This document shows, piece after piece, positions 759 through 27,193 of a stretch of 27,480 nucleotides of DNA; within the stretch, counting starts at the first letter, position 1, and every line of letters begins with the position of its first letter. Source of the DNA: Bdellovibrio sp. (lineage in GTDB: Bacteria; Myxococcota; SpSt-1050); the NCBI GenBank assembly GCA_020725805.1, contig DYEF01000030.1:1-27480 (forward strand), written 5' to 3'. A program made the translations under genes and the position numbers. Under the pieces are notes generated by a model. That model did no database searches, had not been told where the DNA came from, and saw only the letters and a program-made list of their open reading frames with translations.

Positions 759-1919
759 ATGTATGACGATATTATAGAAAGATTGGAAATAAATTATGAA
801 AGACGGATAAAATTCCTGCCGGAGAGGCTCAGGCCAGTTTTTACAAATATTAATATTGATAATTCAAGAGGCGCTATTGTATATGGTCCTCGCGGTGTGG
901 GGAAGACAACATTTATTCTTAATAAAGTCAAAAATTCAGAGAAAAAGATTCTGTATTTTAGTGCAGACAGTCCTCTGGTTTCTTCTGTTTCTCTCTATGA
1001 ATTTGTCTCATCTGTTTTTAGCAAAGGATTCGACGGAGTGGCAATAGATGAGATACATTTTGCAAACAAATGGAGTCAGCACCTCAAAGCTATTTTTGAT
1101 GATTATCCATCAAAACTGATCTGGATAAGTGATAGCAGCAATATAATTTTGAAAAATTCAGTTGTAGATCTCTCCAGAAGATTTGTTCATATAAGATTAC
1201 CCTTGTTGTCTTTTAGAGAATATATCTTTCTTACAACCGGGATAGAAACAAACACTGTAAATCCTTTTGAGAACAGAGATGAGTTGGTTCAGCTTACAAA
1301 GGAAATGAATGTATTACAGGCTTTTCACGCATATATTTCTGCTGGTATAAGACCTGTATTTTTTGAGGGAGAATATTCGGAGAGGATAAAGAATATTGTT
1401 GAGAAGTCAATCTATTATGATCTTCCGTTTTATCTTCCATCTTTTTATAATAATCAGCTTGCGTTGTTGAATGCTATTGTCGGACATCTTATATATTCAC
1501 CTGTTCCGACAATAAATGTATCAGATATGTGTAGAGACTGGGGAATTGGAAAAGAGAAGTTCTACAACATACTCTATGTGATGGAAAAGGGAGAGATTAT
1601 TAATATAGTAAGAAAGACTGAGAAAAAAGGATTTTCAAAAGGTTCGAAAATTCTTCTGACAGATCCTTCAGTCTACTATTGTTATGGCGGGAATATTGGG
1701 AGCGCACGAGAGTCATTTGTGGTAATGTCCTTAAAAGAGAAGTATAAGGTGCTGGCAAGTAAGGATGAACGTGAATGCGATTTTGTAGCAGGGGGTTATA
1801 AAATTGAGGTAGGTGGTAAAAACAAAAAGTATAAAAACGCTGACTTTGTAATTAGTGATGATATCGACATACCTTATAAAAACCGTATTCCTATCTGGAT
1901 GCTGGGATTTATATATTAG
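759..1919 (+). CDS. AAA_14/DUF4143-type ATPase with PD-(D/E)XK-like C-terminus
   Basis: A 386-aa predicted P-loop ATPase. The Walker A motif GPRGVGKTT lies at residues 43-51 and Walker B GVAIDEIH at 93-100. A sensor-like WISDSS follows near 122-127, then the family's Arg-containing LSRRF...LPLLSFREYI segment (138-156). A likely winged-helix region (about 250-290) links to a C-terminal ECDFVAGGYKIEVGGKNK stretch (339-356). That stretch resembles the ExDFV...IEVK core of the nuclease-like DUF4143 fold, with the lysine displaced by two glycines. Members of this family are common, often mobile or sporadic, and their cellular role is poorly understood. The gene stands alone, is AT-rich relative to most neighbours, and has no ribosome binding site. 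The ATG at 759 abuts a promoter and three palindromes, suggesting autoregulation and leaderless translation. Confidence 0.85.
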   Translation: MYDDIIERLEINYERRIKFLPERLRPVFTNINIDNSRGAIVYGPRGVGKTTFILNKVKNSEKKILYFSADSPLVSSVSLYEFVSSVFSKGFDGVAIDEIHFANKWSQHLKAIFDDYPSKLIWISDSSNIILKNSVVDLSRRFVHIRLPLLSFREYIFLTTGIETNTVNPFENRDELVQLTKEMNVLQAFHAYISAGIRPVFFEGEYSERIKNIVEKSIYYDLPFYLPSFYNNQLALLNAIVGHLIYSPVPTINVSDMCRDWGIGKEKFYNILYVMEKGEIINIVRKTEKKGFSKGSKILLTDPSVYYCYGGNIGSARESFVVMSLKEKYKVLASKDERECDFVAGGYKIEVGGKNKKYKNADFVISDDIDIPYKNRIPIWMLGFIY

Positions 1920-6259: not shown

Positions 6260-8485
6260 ATGAAGAGCAGACACAAAAATATAGTTTTTTTATTTCTTTC
6301 CGTTTTTACGGTATTTCTTTTTCAGACCTGTTCGCAGGACTTTTATGCAGACCTCCCCTGTGTGACGAATGACGATTGTCCGAAGGGATATCACTGTGAG
6401 GCCGACGAGACAGGAAAGATGACCTGTAAGAAGGGAGAGACGGAACAGACGGCAGGGGTGACCGTTACTCCCGATGAGATAAGCTTCGGTGATGTCCAGC
6501 TGAGGGATAAAAAGACCGATCAGATAACGATTACAAATAAAAGTCCGTCGAAGGCAAAGGTAAATATTGCTCTCGACTTTGCAAACAAGTCAGACGAGTT
6601 GTCGCTCGAGAAGAAGACGCTCTCTGTAAATTACAACGAGACCGTAAAAGTCGGGGTCACGTATTCCCCGAAGAAGGTGGGTTCCCTTGCACAGAATCAG
6701 GTAAATATATTTATGGTCTCAGAGGGTAAATCCAACAAGGTCAAGAATGTGCTTCTCTTCGGAAAAGGGATTGACCCGAACATTTCTGCTGACCCGATGA
6801 TTCTGGATTTCGGTAAACTATATCCCGGCAATAAATCGGAATTGAAGACAATTACAATCTCCAATACAACCGGCGGAGCCCTGAAAATAACGAACATCTA
6901 TATCAGTGAGAGCGCGGTCTCTGATGCGGGTGGTTCCGAGATCGCGGAATTTGAGATAAGTGAACTTCCGACTTTCCCTGCCTCAATCAGTGAAAAGGAC
7001 GCATTTGTTGAAATAAAGGCCCAGTTTAAGCCAAAAAAGACAGGAGTCAAACAGGCAAATCTGATAGTCGAAAACACAGATATCGATAATCCCGGACTGG
7101 TTGTGACATTAAAGGGAGAAGGCGCTAGTTGTGAGCCTGATTATTACGATATCAACGGTAAGCCCGAGGATGGTTGCGAATATTACTGTGCGCCGAAATT
7201 AAAGGGCGTAGATATCTGTGACGGTGAAGACAATGACTGTGATGGTGAGATTGACAATGCTCCGTCTGATCAGGCGTGCCCTCTCAAGGATAAGGATAAG
7301 AAACATGTATCGGCAACGGCCTGTATAGAAAAAGGCGGAGAGAAGGTGTGTATTATTGCAGAATGCGAGTCCAATTACTGGGATAATGACGGACAGTACG
7401 ACAACGGTTGTGAAGCGGAGTGTGTAAAATCAAACAACGGAATAGAGATCTGCGACGGTGTCGATAATGATTGTAACGGGAAGACTGACGAACTAAATCC
7501 CAACACGATGTGTAAACCTGTTATGAATTCGAGCGAGGCACAGTGTGTTCAGGGGAAGTGCGAATATGTATGTAATTACGGATATGGGAACTGTAATGAC
7601 AACTGGGAAGACGGGTGCGAGACAGATGTGAAGAGCAATAGCGAACACTGTGGTAAGTGCAAAAACCCCTGTATGCCGGACAATGCTATAGGTATGTGTT
7701 CTGATATGCTCTGCAAGGTTGTGAGCTGCAAGAGCGGATATTATGATATAAACAAGGACCCTGCCGATGGCTGTGAGTATCAGTGCACACCTGATGGTCA
7801 GGAAAAATGTGATAAGAAAGACAACGATTGTGATGGGACTACAGATAATGGGGACATAAGAATACTCTGTCCAACCAATATTTATACAACATTTGCCTGT
7901 GAAGAGGGTGCCTGCAAGATTACAGCCTGTACCAAGGGCTGGTACGATGTTGACAAGGTAGTAGATAATGGTTGTGAGTGTCAGGCAAATGATACGTATA
8001 TGGGAGGAGATACCTGCATAGGTGCATATAATCTTGGTGAGTTTAGTTCATCTAAACAGAGTCTTGATATACAGACAAACCTGCTCCCCGTTGGTAGGTC
8101 TGCATGGTATAAGGCTACTTTTAAGGATGATGTCAGCGAGGATATTGCTGAGGGTAAGGATTTATTCCATATAAATATCAGGTTGTCCGCAAATCCTCAG
8201 AATCAGTATGGCCTTGATATATATGAAAGCGATTGTCAAAACGGAAAAATCTTTCTGGACTGTTCCGGTCAGGATTATCATTATGCAACAGATTTCAGGC
8301 AGGGAAGTACCAGTGCACCTGATACATCTGCGACCGGAGAGAATCCCTGCTATGGAAGCGGCAATGTTATCGGTAAAAACCTCTGTAAAAATAGTACCAT
8401 AACAATCTATTTTAGGGTTTTTAGGACAAATACTGCTACACCGACCTGTGAGAGTGCAAATGTCAGAATAGATTTTACGAGATGA
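6260..8485 (+). CDS. secreted lipoprotein with ASH domains and MopE-like Cys-rich motifs
   Basis: A 741-aa protein. A basic start plus hydrophobic core ends at Cys24 (LFQTC), a non-canonical lipobox, so it is probably a lipoprotein. A short Cys module (CVTNDDCPKGYHC, 34-46) follows. Next come two ASH/SPD-2-like beta-sandwich domains with the ISFGDVQ and LDFGKLY openings (about 67-170 and 175-288). A Cys-rich part (291-575) holds three CDGEDNDCDG-type motifs (320, 398, 517), as in MopE-like proteins, and one GNCNDNWEDGCE...CGKC module. The C-terminal domain (about 590-741) is uncharacterised. These modules are typical of surface proteins in Myxococcota-like bacteria. The Asp/Asn/Cys motifs could bind Ca or Cu. 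The promoter directly abuts the ATG, suggesting leaderless expression. Confidence 0.85.
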   Translation: MKSRHKNIVFLFLSVFTVFLFQTCSQDFYADLPCVTNDDCPKGYHCEADETGKMTCKKGETEQTAGVTVTPDEISFGDVQLRDKKTDQITITNKSPSKAKVNIALDFANKSDELSLEKKTLSVNYNETVKVGVTYSPKKVGSLAQNQVNIFMVSEGKSNKVKNVLLFGKGIDPNISADPMILDFGKLYPGNKSELKTITISNTTGGALKITNIYISESAVSDAGGSEIAEFEISELPTFPASISEKDAFVEIKAQFKPKKTGVKQANLIVENTDIDNPGLVVTLKGEGASCEPDYYDINGKPEDGCEYYCAPKLKGVDICDGEDNDCDGEIDNAPSDQACPLKDKDKKHVSATACIEKGGEKVCIIAECESNYWDNDGQYDNGCEAECVKSNNGIEICDGVDNDCNGKTDELNPNTMCKPVMNSSEAQCVQGKCEYVCNYGYGNCNDNWEDGCETDVKSNSEHCGKCKNPCMPDNAIGMCSDMLCKVVSCKSGYYDINKDPADGCEYQCTPDGQEKCDKKDNDCDGTTDNGDIRILCPTNIYTTFACEEGACKITACTKGWYDVDKVVDNGCECQANDTYMGGDTCIGAYNLGEFSSSKQSLDIQTNLLPVGRSAWYKATFKDDVSEDIAEGKDLFHINIRLSANPQNQYGLDIYESDCQNGKIFLDCSGQDYHYATDFRQGSTSAPDTSATGENPCYGSGNVIGKNLCKNSTITIYFRVFRTNTATPTCESANVRIDFTR

Positions 8486-21951: not shown

Positions 21952-24600
21952 ATGTATAAGCAGTTTCTGGTCCTGTTTTTCTTTTTGGCTATTCTCTCTT
22001 TTTCCTGCTCTGACGAGGTAAATCAGGGGAGTCAGGATACTTTGCCGAAACAGGATGCGGCAATCGACACAGGTTTTATATGCAGAAACAAGAACGACTG
22101 CCCGTCGGGTAAGGATTGCATAAACGGCAAATGCGTGGATATAGAAGAAGATACAGGATTTGATGCTGGCTTTGATGCCGGGGATACAGGTGACGGAGGG
22201 AAGTACTGCACAAAGGACGACGAGTGTCCCGCAAATTACAAATGTAATCTTTCGAACAATACCTGTGAAGAGATAAAGGAGCCAAAGGTTTGTCTCTCCG
22301 AAAAAGAGATGGACTTCGGATATGTTCAGTATGGTCAGTCGAAAGAAAAGTGTGTGGTTATGACCAACTGCGGTAATGCGGCTCTTGCCGTTACCGGTGT
22401 TGACTTCGGGAGCAGCACGGCTACGGCGTATCAGTTCAAGGCCGGACAGGAGAAGAAGAAGACGCTCGAGCCGAATTCGTCTGATTATCTGGAGATCTGT
22501 GTGATAGTCGTTCCGAACTCCGAAGAGGCACCTCAGGGGACTGTAGAGGTATATACGAACGCAGAACCTCCGAAGGTCGTTATACCGCTCAAGAGCCAGT
22601 ACAAGGGTTCGTCAGACTTTGTCTTTCTTGATGATACGAACAAGAAGATCTGGCCCGACGGGAATACCTCGACATTCAAGGTGGATTTCGGACTCGTGGG
22701 ACCGGGAAACAAGAAATCGCTGAGGTTTAAGGTTGCGAATGCCACCGACGGAGACAAGCCGCTTCTTATAAAGACGCTGGACAAATTTGCGCCTCAGTTT
22801 TCGGGGAGGTTTTATGATATTTCGGACGACACCAAGGACCTGACACTCCCGATAATAGTAGGTCCTTCCCAGACGGTAGGGCTTGAGCTGACCTATGCGC
22901 CGACACAACGTAGTCCTAAGGATCAGGGGAATCTGCTGATTGAAACCAATGACTTTGATATAGACAACAACGGCACGGCAGATAACGGCAAACTTATGAT
23001 TGAATGCAGTGGAGTTGCAGAGTATCCGCCTGATATATCTGTTGACCCGCTCTCGATTGACTTTGGAGAGGTTCAGAAGGGCGTAAAGAATCCTCCCAAG
23101 AAGAAGATTCTGATAGTAAACACGGCGGACCCGGTAGCAGGTCAGACCCTCAAGATTACTGTAAATTTGAAAGATTTAGAAGAAGATTCTTTTAACATTA
23201 ATCCTAGTGGTTATATTGAGATACCAGCAGGGTACTCAAAAGAGTTGGATGTTACTTTTTGTCCAACAGCAACAGATCGTAGAACTAACACTATCGAAAT
23301 AACTACTAATGTTATGCAGCAAAGTAAAGAAGTTATAAATATTCCACTAAGAGGTATTGGAATTGATCCTAATATGGTTGTTAAAATAATTGGGGATGAA
23401 AATCAAAGCAATGTGTTAGATTTTGGGGAAGTAAAGATAAATACGAGTTTGGAAAAATTCATACAAGTTCTAAATAGCACAAATGTAAAGAATTCAGACT
23501 TAGTTGTTCAAGAACCTGAAATAATCACACAAGATAGTGCATTTAGCTATATGTCAAGTAAAAGTTTTGTAAATGGCTATCTAAGATTGTCTCCTGGAGA
23601 GAGCTTTACTATAACTGTTAAATACTCACCAAAACAAGTAGGTAATAATTCAACTGTCTTAAGAATAAGGAGTAATGACGAAGAGATACAAGTAAAAGAT
23701 ATTGTGTTAATCGGTCGGGCTGTGGATTATAATGGATTGCCTATAGCCATCGCAAAAATTGTTGATTCTTCTTCTGATCCAAAGAAGGGGTATTTTGAAA
23801 AAAACACAAAAGTATTAATAGATGGATCAGAGTCTAAAGACCAGGATATACCTCCGGCTGGCACTAATATTATTACTAAGTATATATGGTCAATGGAAGA
23901 GAAACCAACAAACTCAAAGGCAAGTCTAAGCAGGGTAGAAGGAGTTACTACGGATATTATAGTTGATACGGAAGGTATATATAAGATAGGCTTAAAAGTT
24001 GTAGATGACGAAGGGTTTGAAAGTACCAACATAGATGTTGTAACAATAATTGGTGTCTCGAAAGAAAATCTATTTATTAGCACCTCAAGAAACACAGGAT
24101 TAAAAGGTTTTTTACTAACCTATTGTTGGAAGTGTTTATGTGGGGACTGTAATAATTATTATGATTTAAGATATGAATATTCATCTCTTATTGTTTCTAA
24201 AAGTGTTTATAAAAATCTTGAGGGATATACGTGTGGTTTTCAAGTCGATGATCCGCAGGATCCAAAAAATACATGCAAGTGGCAAAACTTAGGTGAAGTT
24301 ATTTTAACCACTTATTGTAATGGTAACATTTTCGTAAAAGATTATATATTAAATCCATTGGAAATTGAGTATAATAGTGCACCAATAGATGAGAATCTTC
24401 ATGAATATATATATAGGTTAGAATATATGGATGATTCGATTTGCAGTGGAACTTCTAGTTTGGATGTTAGAACAGATTTTAAAATTAATGGCAAGCTTGT
24501 GAAATCAATAAACTCTACACTTTACACGAAAGGTGAAAAGAAAGATATTGCAAGAATTAAAAGACAATTTGGAAAATTTGAGATAGTCGAGCTACCTTAA
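21952..24600 (+). CDS. large lipoprotein with ASH domains and a PKD-like domain; composition mosaic
   Basis: An 882-aa protein. A signal peptide with lipobox LSFSC (Cys19) is followed by two short Cys modules (CRNKNDCPSGKDCINGKC at 44-61 and a similar one at 86-105). A GFDAGFDAGDTG linker separates them. ASH-type beta-sandwich domains then follow: openings MDFGYVQ (120), VDFGLVG (244), IDFGEVQ (369) and LDFGEVK (489). A PKD-like domain lies at about 595-701 (VLIDGSESKDQD, then YIWSME and YKIGLKVVDDEG). The last about 180 residues are Cys-containing and unrecognised. From codon 404 (base 23161) base and codon usage change abruptly: Asp/Lys/Leu switch from GAC/AAG/CTC-type to GAT/AAA/TTA-type. 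The change falls inside the third ASH domain, yet the frame and domain pattern continue. It is probably surface-exposed. Its stop codon is 25 nt from that of the convergent lipoprotein gene. Confidence 0.87.
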   Translation: MYKQFLVLFFFLAILSFSCSDEVNQGSQDTLPKQDAAIDTGFICRNKNDCPSGKDCINGKCVDIEEDTGFDAGFDAGDTGDGGKYCTKDDECPANYKCNLSNNTCEEIKEPKVCLSEKEMDFGYVQYGQSKEKCVVMTNCGNAALAVTGVDFGSSTATAYQFKAGQEKKKTLEPNSSDYLEICVIVVPNSEEAPQGTVEVYTNAEPPKVVIPLKSQYKGSSDFVFLDDTNKKIWPDGNTSTFKVDFGLVGPGNKKSLRFKVANATDGDKPLLIKTLDKFAPQFSGRFYDISDDTKDLTLPIIVGPSQTVGLELTYAPTQRSPKDQGNLLIETNDFDIDNNGTADNGKLMIECSGVAEYPPDISVDPLSIDFGEVQKGVKNPPKKKILIVNTADPVAGQTLKITVNLKDLEEDSFNINPSGYIEIPAGYSKELDVTFCPTATDRRTNTIEITTNVMQQSKEVINIPLRGIGIDPNMVVKIIGDENQSNVLDFGEVKINTSLEKFIQVLNSTNVKNSDLVVQEPEIITQDSAFSYMSSKSFVNGYLRLSPGESFTITVKYSPKQVGNNSTVLRIRSNDEEIQVKDIVLIGRAVDYNGLPIAIAKIVDSSSDPKKGYFEKNTKVLIDGSESKDQDIPPAGTNIITKYIWSMEEKPTNSKASLSRVEGVTTDIIVDTEGIYKIGLKVVDDEGFESTNIDVVTIIGVSKENLFISTSRNTGLKGFLLTYCWKCLCGDCNNYYDLRYEYSSLIVSKSVYKNLEGYTCGFQVDDPQDPKNTCKWQNLGEVILTTYCNGNIFVKDYILNPLEIEYNSAPIDENLHEYIYRLEYMDDSICSGTSSLDVRTDFKINGKLVKSINSTLYTKGEKKDIARIKRQFGKFEIVELP

Positions 24601-25920
24601 GATTATGTTAATATGAAAATAGAAGTTAATGTTTATTACAGAAATTGACTGCTTGAAGGGATTCGTAGATTGTTGTTTGTAAATCAAAATTGTATATATT
24701 AATTATTATTTCTTTTGATGAAATGTTCTTTAAATTTAACGCATTGTTCTGATTAGATTGGTTAAAATCTGTATTGTATATTAATTTTTGACTACAGTAA
24801 TCTGGTTGATCTAGCTCACTTGTAATGATAAAAAATAAACTATTGATGGGATTGTTTGGCGTAGCGAGGTATATATTGGTTAGTATCTCGTTTGATTGGT
24901 TTGGTAAAATGTTTATTAGTCCCAAAGGCATGTTAAAATAAATAAGATCCGAATAAAAGGTTTTACCTTTTGCAAAATTTAAATCCTGGTCTAATAAAAT
25001 AAGGTGATACATTAAATCTTTTTTCCCTAATGTGTCTAGGTTGTACGACAGCCCAGCAATTATAAAATTATCATTTGTTGTTGCTTGAGCAATATAATCC
25101 AAATTTTTGTCATTTAAATATATATCATTCGCTTTTTCAACAAAGTATGTAGAGCCAGATAAGAAAAGTTTCGCTATTTTAATATGGTTGAATTCATTGT
25201 TAACAGAATTAGTTTGATTGCCAATTATAATGGTTTTGTTGTAAGAATTTTTTAAGACCGCTTCAAAAGAAATAATCTCATCGTCTGGAAATGAAAACGA
25301 CTTATTAACCGAGAGATCATTGTTAATATTAATAATGCAACCTTTCATATGTTTATTGGGCACTTGATTAATTACCGTGTTTCCTATTATAAAAGTACTG
25401 TTGTCTATTGTAATCCCTGATTTTAGAATAAAACTATTTTTTTCATTGTCTGACTCAAAGTAAATCTTAGAATTTATAGTTCCACTTGTATTATATTTTA
25501 TTAGAATTCCATTAGTATATGAAAAATTATCTTTTTTGTAAATCTCCCCGAATAATAAGATCTCATTGCTAGTAGTTTGAATAGAATTTATACTTATTAT
25601 ATTTTCAAAAGAAAGAAGTTTTGTACTAACAACAACACCCTTTTCATCTAATTCTATTATTAGTAAATTTGTAAAAGTTTCAAGCGGTTCCTCTCCTATA
25701 AGAAATATTCTTTCACCAATATTGGAAACATATTTGGGGTAAAAAACTTTTGAGAAATATTTATTCCATATAATATTTCCATTTATATCAGTTTTAGTTA
25801 AAATAGTTTTGAAATCTTTTGTTTCATTGTTATATATAACGAATGTTATATAATAAGATGTATTTAACAGATGTATTGAGTATGTAAAAGTATGATAACT
25901 AATTGTTTTATATATCTTTG
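23161..25920. other. AT-rich island spanning the 3' halves of two convergent genes
   Basis: Hand counts of single 60-base rows give 30 G+C at 22681-22740 and 29 at 23101-23160, then 15 at 23161-23220 and 14 at 24961-25020, then 30 at 26041-26100. The left edge is near 23160 inside the first gene and the right edge near 25915-25925 inside the second. No integrase, transposase, terminal repeat or tRNA is visible at either edge. Confidence 0.75.
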
Positions 25921-27082
25921 GGAAGTAGCTCCATTCTTCGCAGCCGTTTGTGCGGTCGGTGTCGGCGTCTATATAGGAGATGAGACACTCATCATAGTTG
26001 CATACTTTATTTTCGCACAATATGGTTTTTACATTCTTTGTCCCGCATTTCTTTCCACACTCTCCGCAGTGTTTTATATCGGTGCTAAGGTCTGTCTCGC
26101 AGCCGGTCAGTTCGTTCAAGTCACAATCCCCGAATCCGTCATCACACACACACTTGCCTTCTGCACAGTGTGTTTTGTATGGACATATCTTTTTACACTC
26201 GCCGCAGTTTAGATTATCTTCGTACAGGTTTATCTCACACCCGGTCTTCCACAATTTGTCACAATTGCCGAATCCGCTCTTGCAATCACACACCTTATTG
26301 TTGCATACAGAGTTGTCTCCGCAGTTTGTAACACAATCGCCGCAATGAGATGAATCTGTTGCCAGATTTGTTTCGCAGCCTGTCTCGTCTTTGCCGTCAC
26401 AATTTTCAAACCCGGATGCACACTTCGTAATTATGCAGTTGCCGTTTTTGCACTCGGAGAAGGCATTGTCCAGAATGCATTTGTGATAGCATTCGCCGCA
26501 GTTGTCGTTATTGTTTAATATGTTAGTCTCACATCCGTCATCTTTCTCTTTGTTGCAATCCCTGAATCCGGTCTTGCAGACAATTTCCTGTGTGTCTGCT
26601 GTTGTGTCATCAAAGATGTCCTGCAGTATATCTGAGATATCTGCAACGTCCGTATCCGTGGTATCATCTGTTGTATCCTGAGTATCGTAACCATAATCAT
26701 AACCTGCATCGGTTAAATCTTTAATTCTTAAAACAAGAACCACTTTTTCCCTTCTCTTTTTAATAAAAGATTTTTCCGCGCTTTCTGTCGTAAGAAGATT
26801 CCCTCCTTTATATGCGGATACGGTAAAGGTCATTGCGTATTCGGTATCATTTTCGGAACTTATAAGTATCTCGAACGGAAAGTCGTTGGATTTGACATTG
26901 TAATCCTTACTGAATTTTGTCTCGTTATAGGCGGCTCCAGTGATGTTTATTTTGTCGGGGGTCTGCCCGGCCGGAAGCTGATTCTCTATTCTGAGGATAA
27001 TCTCTGTCTTTTCTTCCGAACAGGAAAGAATTAGCAAGGGGAATAATAATATTACAGGTATTCCGTTTTTTAATTGCTTCAT
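24626..27082 (-). CDS. lipoprotein with tandem Cys-rich repeats and a probable beta-propeller domain; composition mosaic
   Basis: The frame is open to a GTG at 27127, but the ATG at 27082 gives a textbook lipoprotein signal peptide of 20 residues ending in LLILSC (Cys21), so I prefer 818 aa. An N-terminal beta region follows, then an Asp/Thr linker (YDTQDTTDDTTDTD). About four tandem 40-residue Cys modules come next (pattern GF-DC-GCE-L-CG-C-C, e.g. GFGDCDLNELTGCETDLS). The C-terminal 430 residues contain repeated KTDINGNIIWNK- and IIELDEKGVV-like strands with SNEILLFGE- and FIIAGLSY-like returns, suggesting a divergent beta-propeller. That C-terminal part (24626 to about 25920) is markedly AT-rich, while the Cys-rich part is about 50 percent GC in a sampled row. 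No Shine-Dalgarno precedes the ATG; a TTGTTT-17-TATATG promoter (27121-27093) ends 10 nt before it. Confidence 0.8.
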   Translation of the reverse strand: MKQLKNGIPVILLFPLLILSCSEEKTEIILRIENQLPAGQTPDKINITGAAYNETKFSKDYNVKSNDFPFEILISSENDTEYAMTFTVSAYKGGNLLTTESAEKSFIKKRREKVVLVLRIKDLTDAGYDYGYDTQDTTDDTTDTDVADISDILQDIFDDTTADTQEIVCKTGFRDCNKEKDDGCETNILNNNDNCGECYHKCILDNAFSECKNGNCIITKCASGFENCDGKDETGCETNLATDSSHCGDCVTNCGDNSVCNNKVCDCKSGFGNCDKLWKTGCEINLYEDNLNCGECKKICPYKTHCAEGKCVCDDGFGDCDLNELTGCETDLSTDIKHCGECGKKCGTKNVKTILCENKVCNYDECLISYIDADTDRTNGCEEWSYFPKIYKTISYHTFTYSIHLLNTSYYITFVIYNNETKDFKTILTKTDINGNIIWNKYFSKVFYPKYVSNIGERIFLIGEEPLETFTNLLIIELDEKGVVVSTKLLSFENIISINSIQTTSNEILLFGEIYKKDNFSYTNGILIKYNTSGTINSKIYFESDNEKNSFILKSGITIDNSTFIIGNTVINQVPNKHMKGCIININNDLSVNKSFSFPDDEIISFEAVLKNSYNKTIIIGNQTNSVNNEFNHIKIAKLFLSGSTYFVEKANDIYLNDKNLDYIAQATTNDNFIIAGLSYNLDTLGKKDLMYHLILLDQDLNFAKGKTFYSDLIYFNMPLGLINILPNQSNEILTNIYLATPNNPINSLFFIITSELDQPDYCSQKLIYNTDFNQSNQNNALNLKNISSKEIIINIYNFDLQTTIYESLQAVNFCNKH

Positions 27083-27193
27083 AGGCAAAATCCATATAGC
27101 ACAATTTGCCTGCAAAAACAAATTCACATAAATATTCTCTCCCCGCTAATTTCGAACAGTTACCCAACAAGAGTTTTGGTCTTAAAAGTCTGA

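Follow-up and report, generated by a model that had tools for sequence, protein, structure and literature searches.

The window analysed here, 27,480 nucleotides of Bdellovibrio sp. (assembly GCA_020725805.1, contig DYEF01000030.1, positions 1 to 27,480), contains two convergent lipoprotein genes, here called A and B, whose 3' halves lie in one AT-rich island of 2.76 kb. This island was probably imported by homologous recombination, replacing the 3' halves of both genes. For gene A, there is good evidence of recombination within a conserved domain. It is plausible that the A and B tails arrived in one event, as their matching codon usage and adjacency suggest, and a single paired import would be the simplest reading of the two tails.

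An AT-rich island across two convergent genes

Gene A (21952-24600, plus strand) encodes an 882-aa lipoprotein with DUF1573/choice-of-anchor D (ASH) repeats, and gene B (24626-27127, minus strand) a Cys-rich lipoprotein convergent with it. Gene A ends at 24600 and the stop codon of B begins at 24626 (plus-strand coordinate), leaving a gap of 25 nt (24601-24625) between the two stop codons. From its sequence, the true start of B is probably the ATG near 27082, rather than the mechanically assigned GTG at 27127.

Both genes are divided into a part of native composition and an AT-rich part. In gene A, codons 1-403 (21952-23160) encode the lipoprotein signal, a linker, and DUF1573/choice-of-anchor D (ASH) repeats, with a GC3 of 0.56. 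Codons 404-882 (23161-24600; GC3 0.22) encode what remains of an ASH repeat, another such repeat (residues ~487-588), a PKD-like domain (618-695), and a C-terminal domain specific to the clade. Among 195 genomes of the phylum, this last domain was found only in the genome itself, in the same-genus SKW273 and, weakly, in a same-order genome. In gene B, the N-terminal part (25918-27127; GC3 0.48) encodes the lipoprotein signal, a linker, and MXAN_6577-like Cys-rich repeats (residues ~182-397), and the C-terminal part (24626-25917; codons 404-833, about 430 residues) has a GC3 of 0.23.

The window scan placed the island at 23161-25917, with the GC content falling from ~0.49 to 0.25-0.36 and recovering in gene B. 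The GC3 change points were placed by likelihood, with 2-log-unit ranges for the edges, and each step was scored by its log-likelihood ratio (LLR) against a null in which codons were shuffled within genes. In gene A, GC3 passes from 0.56 to 0.22 at codon 401 (range 394-407, nt ~23134-23173; LLR 53.5), and in gene B from 0.48 to 0.23 at codon 404 (range 400-409, nt ~25915; LLR 28.8), the median GC3 of the genome's genes being 0.48. The largest step among 20 codon-shuffled sets of 860 genes had an LLR of 12.0, and the within-gene composition break in A thus exceeds the chance expectation. The genome-wide scan for GC3 steps covered 1.68 of 3.29 Mb, about half of the genome.

The edge in A lies inside an ASH/choice-of-anchor D repeat, and that in B directly past the last Cys-rich repeat. 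Both reading frames are uninterrupted through the island edges, near which only short, weak pairs of repeats were found. The codon usage of both tails lies at a distance of 0.28-0.29 from native genes, 95% of native 450-codon chunks being reached at 0.164. An earlier note on this DNA had described a composition drop at 23160 within an ASH domain and a return near 25920 past the Cys-rich repeats of B, a change of codon choice along with GC, a 25-nt junction, and frames open over both edges; the GC profile, the GC3 change points, and the codon usage distances bear out this description.

The two tails resemble each other: their GC3 values are equal (0.223 in A and 0.231 in B, p=0.81), their codon usage distance is 0.147, and no compositional seam between them was seen along the island GC profile. 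The tails' codon usage is also near that of the genome's other AT-rich loci (CRISPR-Cas and Rhs-tip contigs; distances 0.085 and 0.114), and the closeness of the tails is partly expected from AT-richness alone.

Elsewhere in the window, positions 6260-8485 (plus strand) hold another lipoprotein gene, with ASH and Cu-binding-MopE-like Cys-rich parts, whose product is 75% identical to that of an SKW273 gene over nearly the full length and whose GC3 declines mildly from 0.51 to 0.35. An AAA_14-type ATPase gene (759-1919, plus strand), probably also acquired, lies in AT-rich DNA (GC ~0.33) at the window's left end.

Divergence of gene A from its relatives

We compared gene A of this genome (G000) with its orthologues in SKW273 (G001), a same-genus metagenome-assembled genome (MAG), and in NC_groundwater_1649 (G002), a MAG of the same order. 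An alignment-based contig search found both genomes, a query with A only having given none. With two usable orthologues, the signal for import consists of branch length and composition, not of topological conflict between the halves of the gene.

The SKW273 orthologue is full length and colinear with gene A to the last residue. Its GC3 is ~0.34 in the N-terminal half, near its genome average, and ~0.28 in the C-terminal half, without a sharp step. The G002 homologue is also full length, with a uniform GC3 of 0.81-0.97. The composition step of gene A, whose sharing by relatives the earlier note had regarded as evidence against an exchange, is thus absent from both.

Protein identity between gene A and its SKW273 orthologue is 0.78 over codons 1-402 and 0.48 beyond, the break being placed at codon 403 (399-405); the identity and GC3 change points (403 and 401) coincide within about 3 codons. 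In the nucleotide alignment, most differences in the codons through 23160 are at third positions, and the match collapses from 23161. Immediately before this edge, a conserved ASH strand (23092-23160, plus strand) has all residues identical to SKW273, with differences mainly at third positions.

Such a pattern could also arise with no recombination at all, if the C-terminal domains evolved fast under weak constraint and drifted to AT, so that identity and GC both fell. C-terminal GC is indeed lower in G002 genes as well, both in a B-like gene (0.87 to ~0.6) and in the tail of the orthologue of a long lipoprotein gene on our contig C8 (0.86 to 0.74), and C-terminal modules may tend toward lower GC for another reason. 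Identity breaks alone are also not rare: that of A (LLR 42) ranks third among 77 G000-G001 orthologue pairs (96th percentile), and by itself is therefore no proof of recombination. Against this explanation, the edge in A is confined to a few codons inside one ASH repeat, a step is slight or absent in the A genes of SKW273 and G002, and the identity between these two does not drop at the A edge, being 0.326 in the N-terminal half and 0.294 in the C-terminal half (p=0.46 on a near-identical earlier alignment). Since these values are nearly equal, the C-terminal half of A is not intrinsically fast-evolving. Furthermore, in comparisons with four outgroup or paralogue sequences, the C-terminal half of A is always more distant in G000 than in SKW273, while the N-terminal halves are level (p=0.02, the comparisons not being independent). 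Among the other pairs in the top 15 by identity break, the GC3 break LLR is at most 8.4, versus 53.5 for A, and of the 77 pairs A alone combines a strong identity break with a strong GC3 break. The joint breaks and the position of the edge inside one ASH repeat favour recombination over drift, which we consider very unlikely.

A different possibility is that the island is a metagenome assembly chimera, in which reads of a co-occurring AT-rich relative were joined into the contig at conserved stretches. The relatives are MAGs, the genome itself (115 contigs) looks like one, and the A edge follows a conserved stretch, where assemblers can switch. However, a chimera would require two in-frame joins within 2.8 kb plus a return to native composition, the full-length architecture of A is genuine according to SKW273, and a similar two-tone gene lies on another contig (C8). 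A chimera is thus unlikely.

Gene B and the other two-tone genes

The gene downstream of A in both SKW273 and G002 is a same-strand gene, not B (a reading of the sequence, the SKW273 contig stopping 493 nt past A). Gene B is one of a large set of modular paralogues whose ends are interchangeable. Its C-terminal part consists of repeats of ~50-57 residues, with hhhGE/N motifs at residues 475, 524, 579, and 633 (spacing 49-55 residues), which may form propeller-like repeats; a single-sequence fold prediction of this half gave a mean pLDDT of 36.5. The C-terminal half of B had no match at E<=1e-3 in 193 genomes of the phylum, nor any match among viral contigs, phages, and plasmids, and is remotely similar to the C-terminal parts of paralogues in its own genome. 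In B-like paralogues on contigs C78 and C89 of this genome and in G002 genes, the Cys-rich part and the remotely similar C-terminal part are colinear across the edge of B, and the paralogues on C78 and C89 have no such GC3 step. Only these remote paralogues span the edge, there being no B orthologue for a divergence comparison. In a B-like gene on contig C85 of G002 (L038), GC3 is 0.87 up to codon 300 and about 0.6 beyond it; this drop, close to where the Cys-rich part ends, may be an independent parallel of the edge in B.

The earlier note had argued for recombination within conserved domains. This holds for A, given the coincident breaks, the relatives without the step, and a C-terminal half whose homology and colinearity extend to the last residue. 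For B, an origin in the same event is plausible but unproven, because its C-terminal half has no close relative. The tails could instead derive from separate events, with the C-terminal half of A acquired by homologous exchange and the AT-rich part of B independently, by module fusion or by exchange among Cys-rich lipoprotein paralogues. The different neighbour of A in SKW273 and G002, the modular family of B with its interchangeable ends, and the lack of a close homologue of its C-terminal half all agree with this reading. Conversely, the tails adjoin, share the same GC3 and a similar codon usage, and show no seam between them, and we regard separate events as rather unlikely.

The evidence does not support the suggestion of a locus that switches antigens or specificity. 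Programmed switching of paired surface-protein ends, by cassettes or as antigenic variation, would agree with the paired, probably exposed ends that change together and with the gene of similar anatomy on contig C8. Nevertheless, the silent copies of similar 3' blocks that it implies were searched by DNA and protein in the own genome (97.9% complete), and neither a second DNA copy of the island nor a close protein copy of the C-terminal half of A was found, the paralogues being at most 38% identical over short stretches. Repeats near the edges are short and weak, no recombinase gene was noticed in the window ORFs, both relatives have another gene after A, and the island is known from one genome only. 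Finally, lipoproteins show no significant enrichment of 3' AT drops under two signal definitions, in a weak test, since B escaped both definitions owing to its mechanically assigned start and A escaped the first. Switching is therefore extremely improbable.

Other loci of the genome are two-tone or AT-rich. The strongest GC3 step in the scanned half of the genome lies in a contig C8 gene (L082:10682-17977, minus strand) for a 2432-aa lipoprotein, with a fall from 0.52 to 0.22 at codon 2023, just before the FG-GAP repeats at its end. Its G002 orthologue is full length and colinear, the identity passes from 0.54 to 0.30 at the step, and the GC3 of G002 also dips there; no match was found in SKW273. 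A second gene on the same contig (C8:31133-35986; L193:13634-18487, minus strand) encodes a 1618-aa lipoprotein with a milder drop at codon 1033 (0.49 to 0.32), at the start of its LVIVD repeats. Contig C64 (L157:13445-17411) carries an RHS-core fragment that ends in an AT-rich tip. More AT-rich ORFs follow, two of them with a motif like the end of the RHS core (YYNWWRWY...GRYLQ), and the region is likely an array of displaced Rhs ends. Contig C1 (L075:2294-8643) holds AT-rich CRISPR-Cas genes (GC3 ~0.2) with Cas3, Cas5, and DevR/Csa2 matches.

Proposed import and comparison with known systems

In the proposed import, the donor would be a relative carrying A, of higher AT content (GC3 about 0.22), whose lineage branched off before this genome and SKW273 separated. 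The donor segment would start within A, cross the shared 3' ends, and end within B. Homologous recombination would have joined it at the conserved ASH strand in A and beside the last conserved Cys-rich repeat in B, and joins at these positions would account for the preservation of both frames and domain registers. The outcome would be two mosaic alleles, in which a native N-terminal lipoprotein anchor and native proximal domains are joined to foreign distal domains, presumably the outermost ones. The direction of transfer, a RecA-type mechanism, and a benefit from altered exposed domains are all presumed in this account. No donor of the A tail was found in the 195 phylum genomes, where only SKW273 and weak G002 relatives appeared, and no donor of the island among viral contigs, phages, and plasmids. 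A donor with A and B paired tail to tail is hypothetical, this arrangement being absent from SKW273 and G002.

A more general possibility is that convergent modular lipoprotein pairs act as a recombination unit, in which one crossover pair in two conserved proximal domains repeatedly swaps both distal ends from an AT-rich allele pool; we give this idea very little credence. If such pairs were to recur, their tail-to-tail order would offer a simple route to exchange two surface specificities in one event. The locus itself presents a probable within-gene import in an uncultivated lineage, affecting a probably exposed part of a surface protein, with a breakpoint set to a few codons by two independent signals.

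In naturally recombining bacteria, mosaic surface-antigen genes have exposed domains replaced by the divergent alleles of relatives. The present locus is similar in that exposed surface-protein domains appear to have been replaced by divergent alleles, but here in an uncultivated deltaproteobacterium and in one genome. At the level of protein families, A matches the choice-of-anchor D proteins of NF012200 well above the curated cut-off (107.1 bits versus 45). Gene B shares the repeat pattern of the MXAN_6577-like Cys-rich proteins of NF041328, but lies below the curated cut-off (45.5 bits versus 100) and has an extra C-terminal part of ~430 residues.

Rhs C-terminal displacement (Jackson et al. 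2009, PMC2935791) likewise concerns proteins in which the N-terminal core is conserved and the C-terminal end is variable, AT-rich, and deviant in composition. In contrast to an unrelated tip, however, the C-terminal half of A is homologous to that of its relatives. Neither A nor B has a Pfam or NCBIfam match to an RHS core or to the core of another polymorphic toxin upstream of the AT-rich tip, and neither a toxin nor an immunity gene was identified. The locus is not a case of Rhs or polymorphic-toxin end displacement.

The closest comparison is with mosaic genes. Chan et al. 2009 (PMC2639706) described the lateral transfer of gene fragments, with breakpoints within genes and within domain-coding regions, the latter not being preferentially preserved intact. 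The locus shares with these genes intragenic and intradomain breakpoints and a conserved reading frame; it differs in having a segment that apparently covers the 3' halves of a convergent gene pair and is strongly set apart by composition. Most likely, it is a clear further example of known within-gene recombination.
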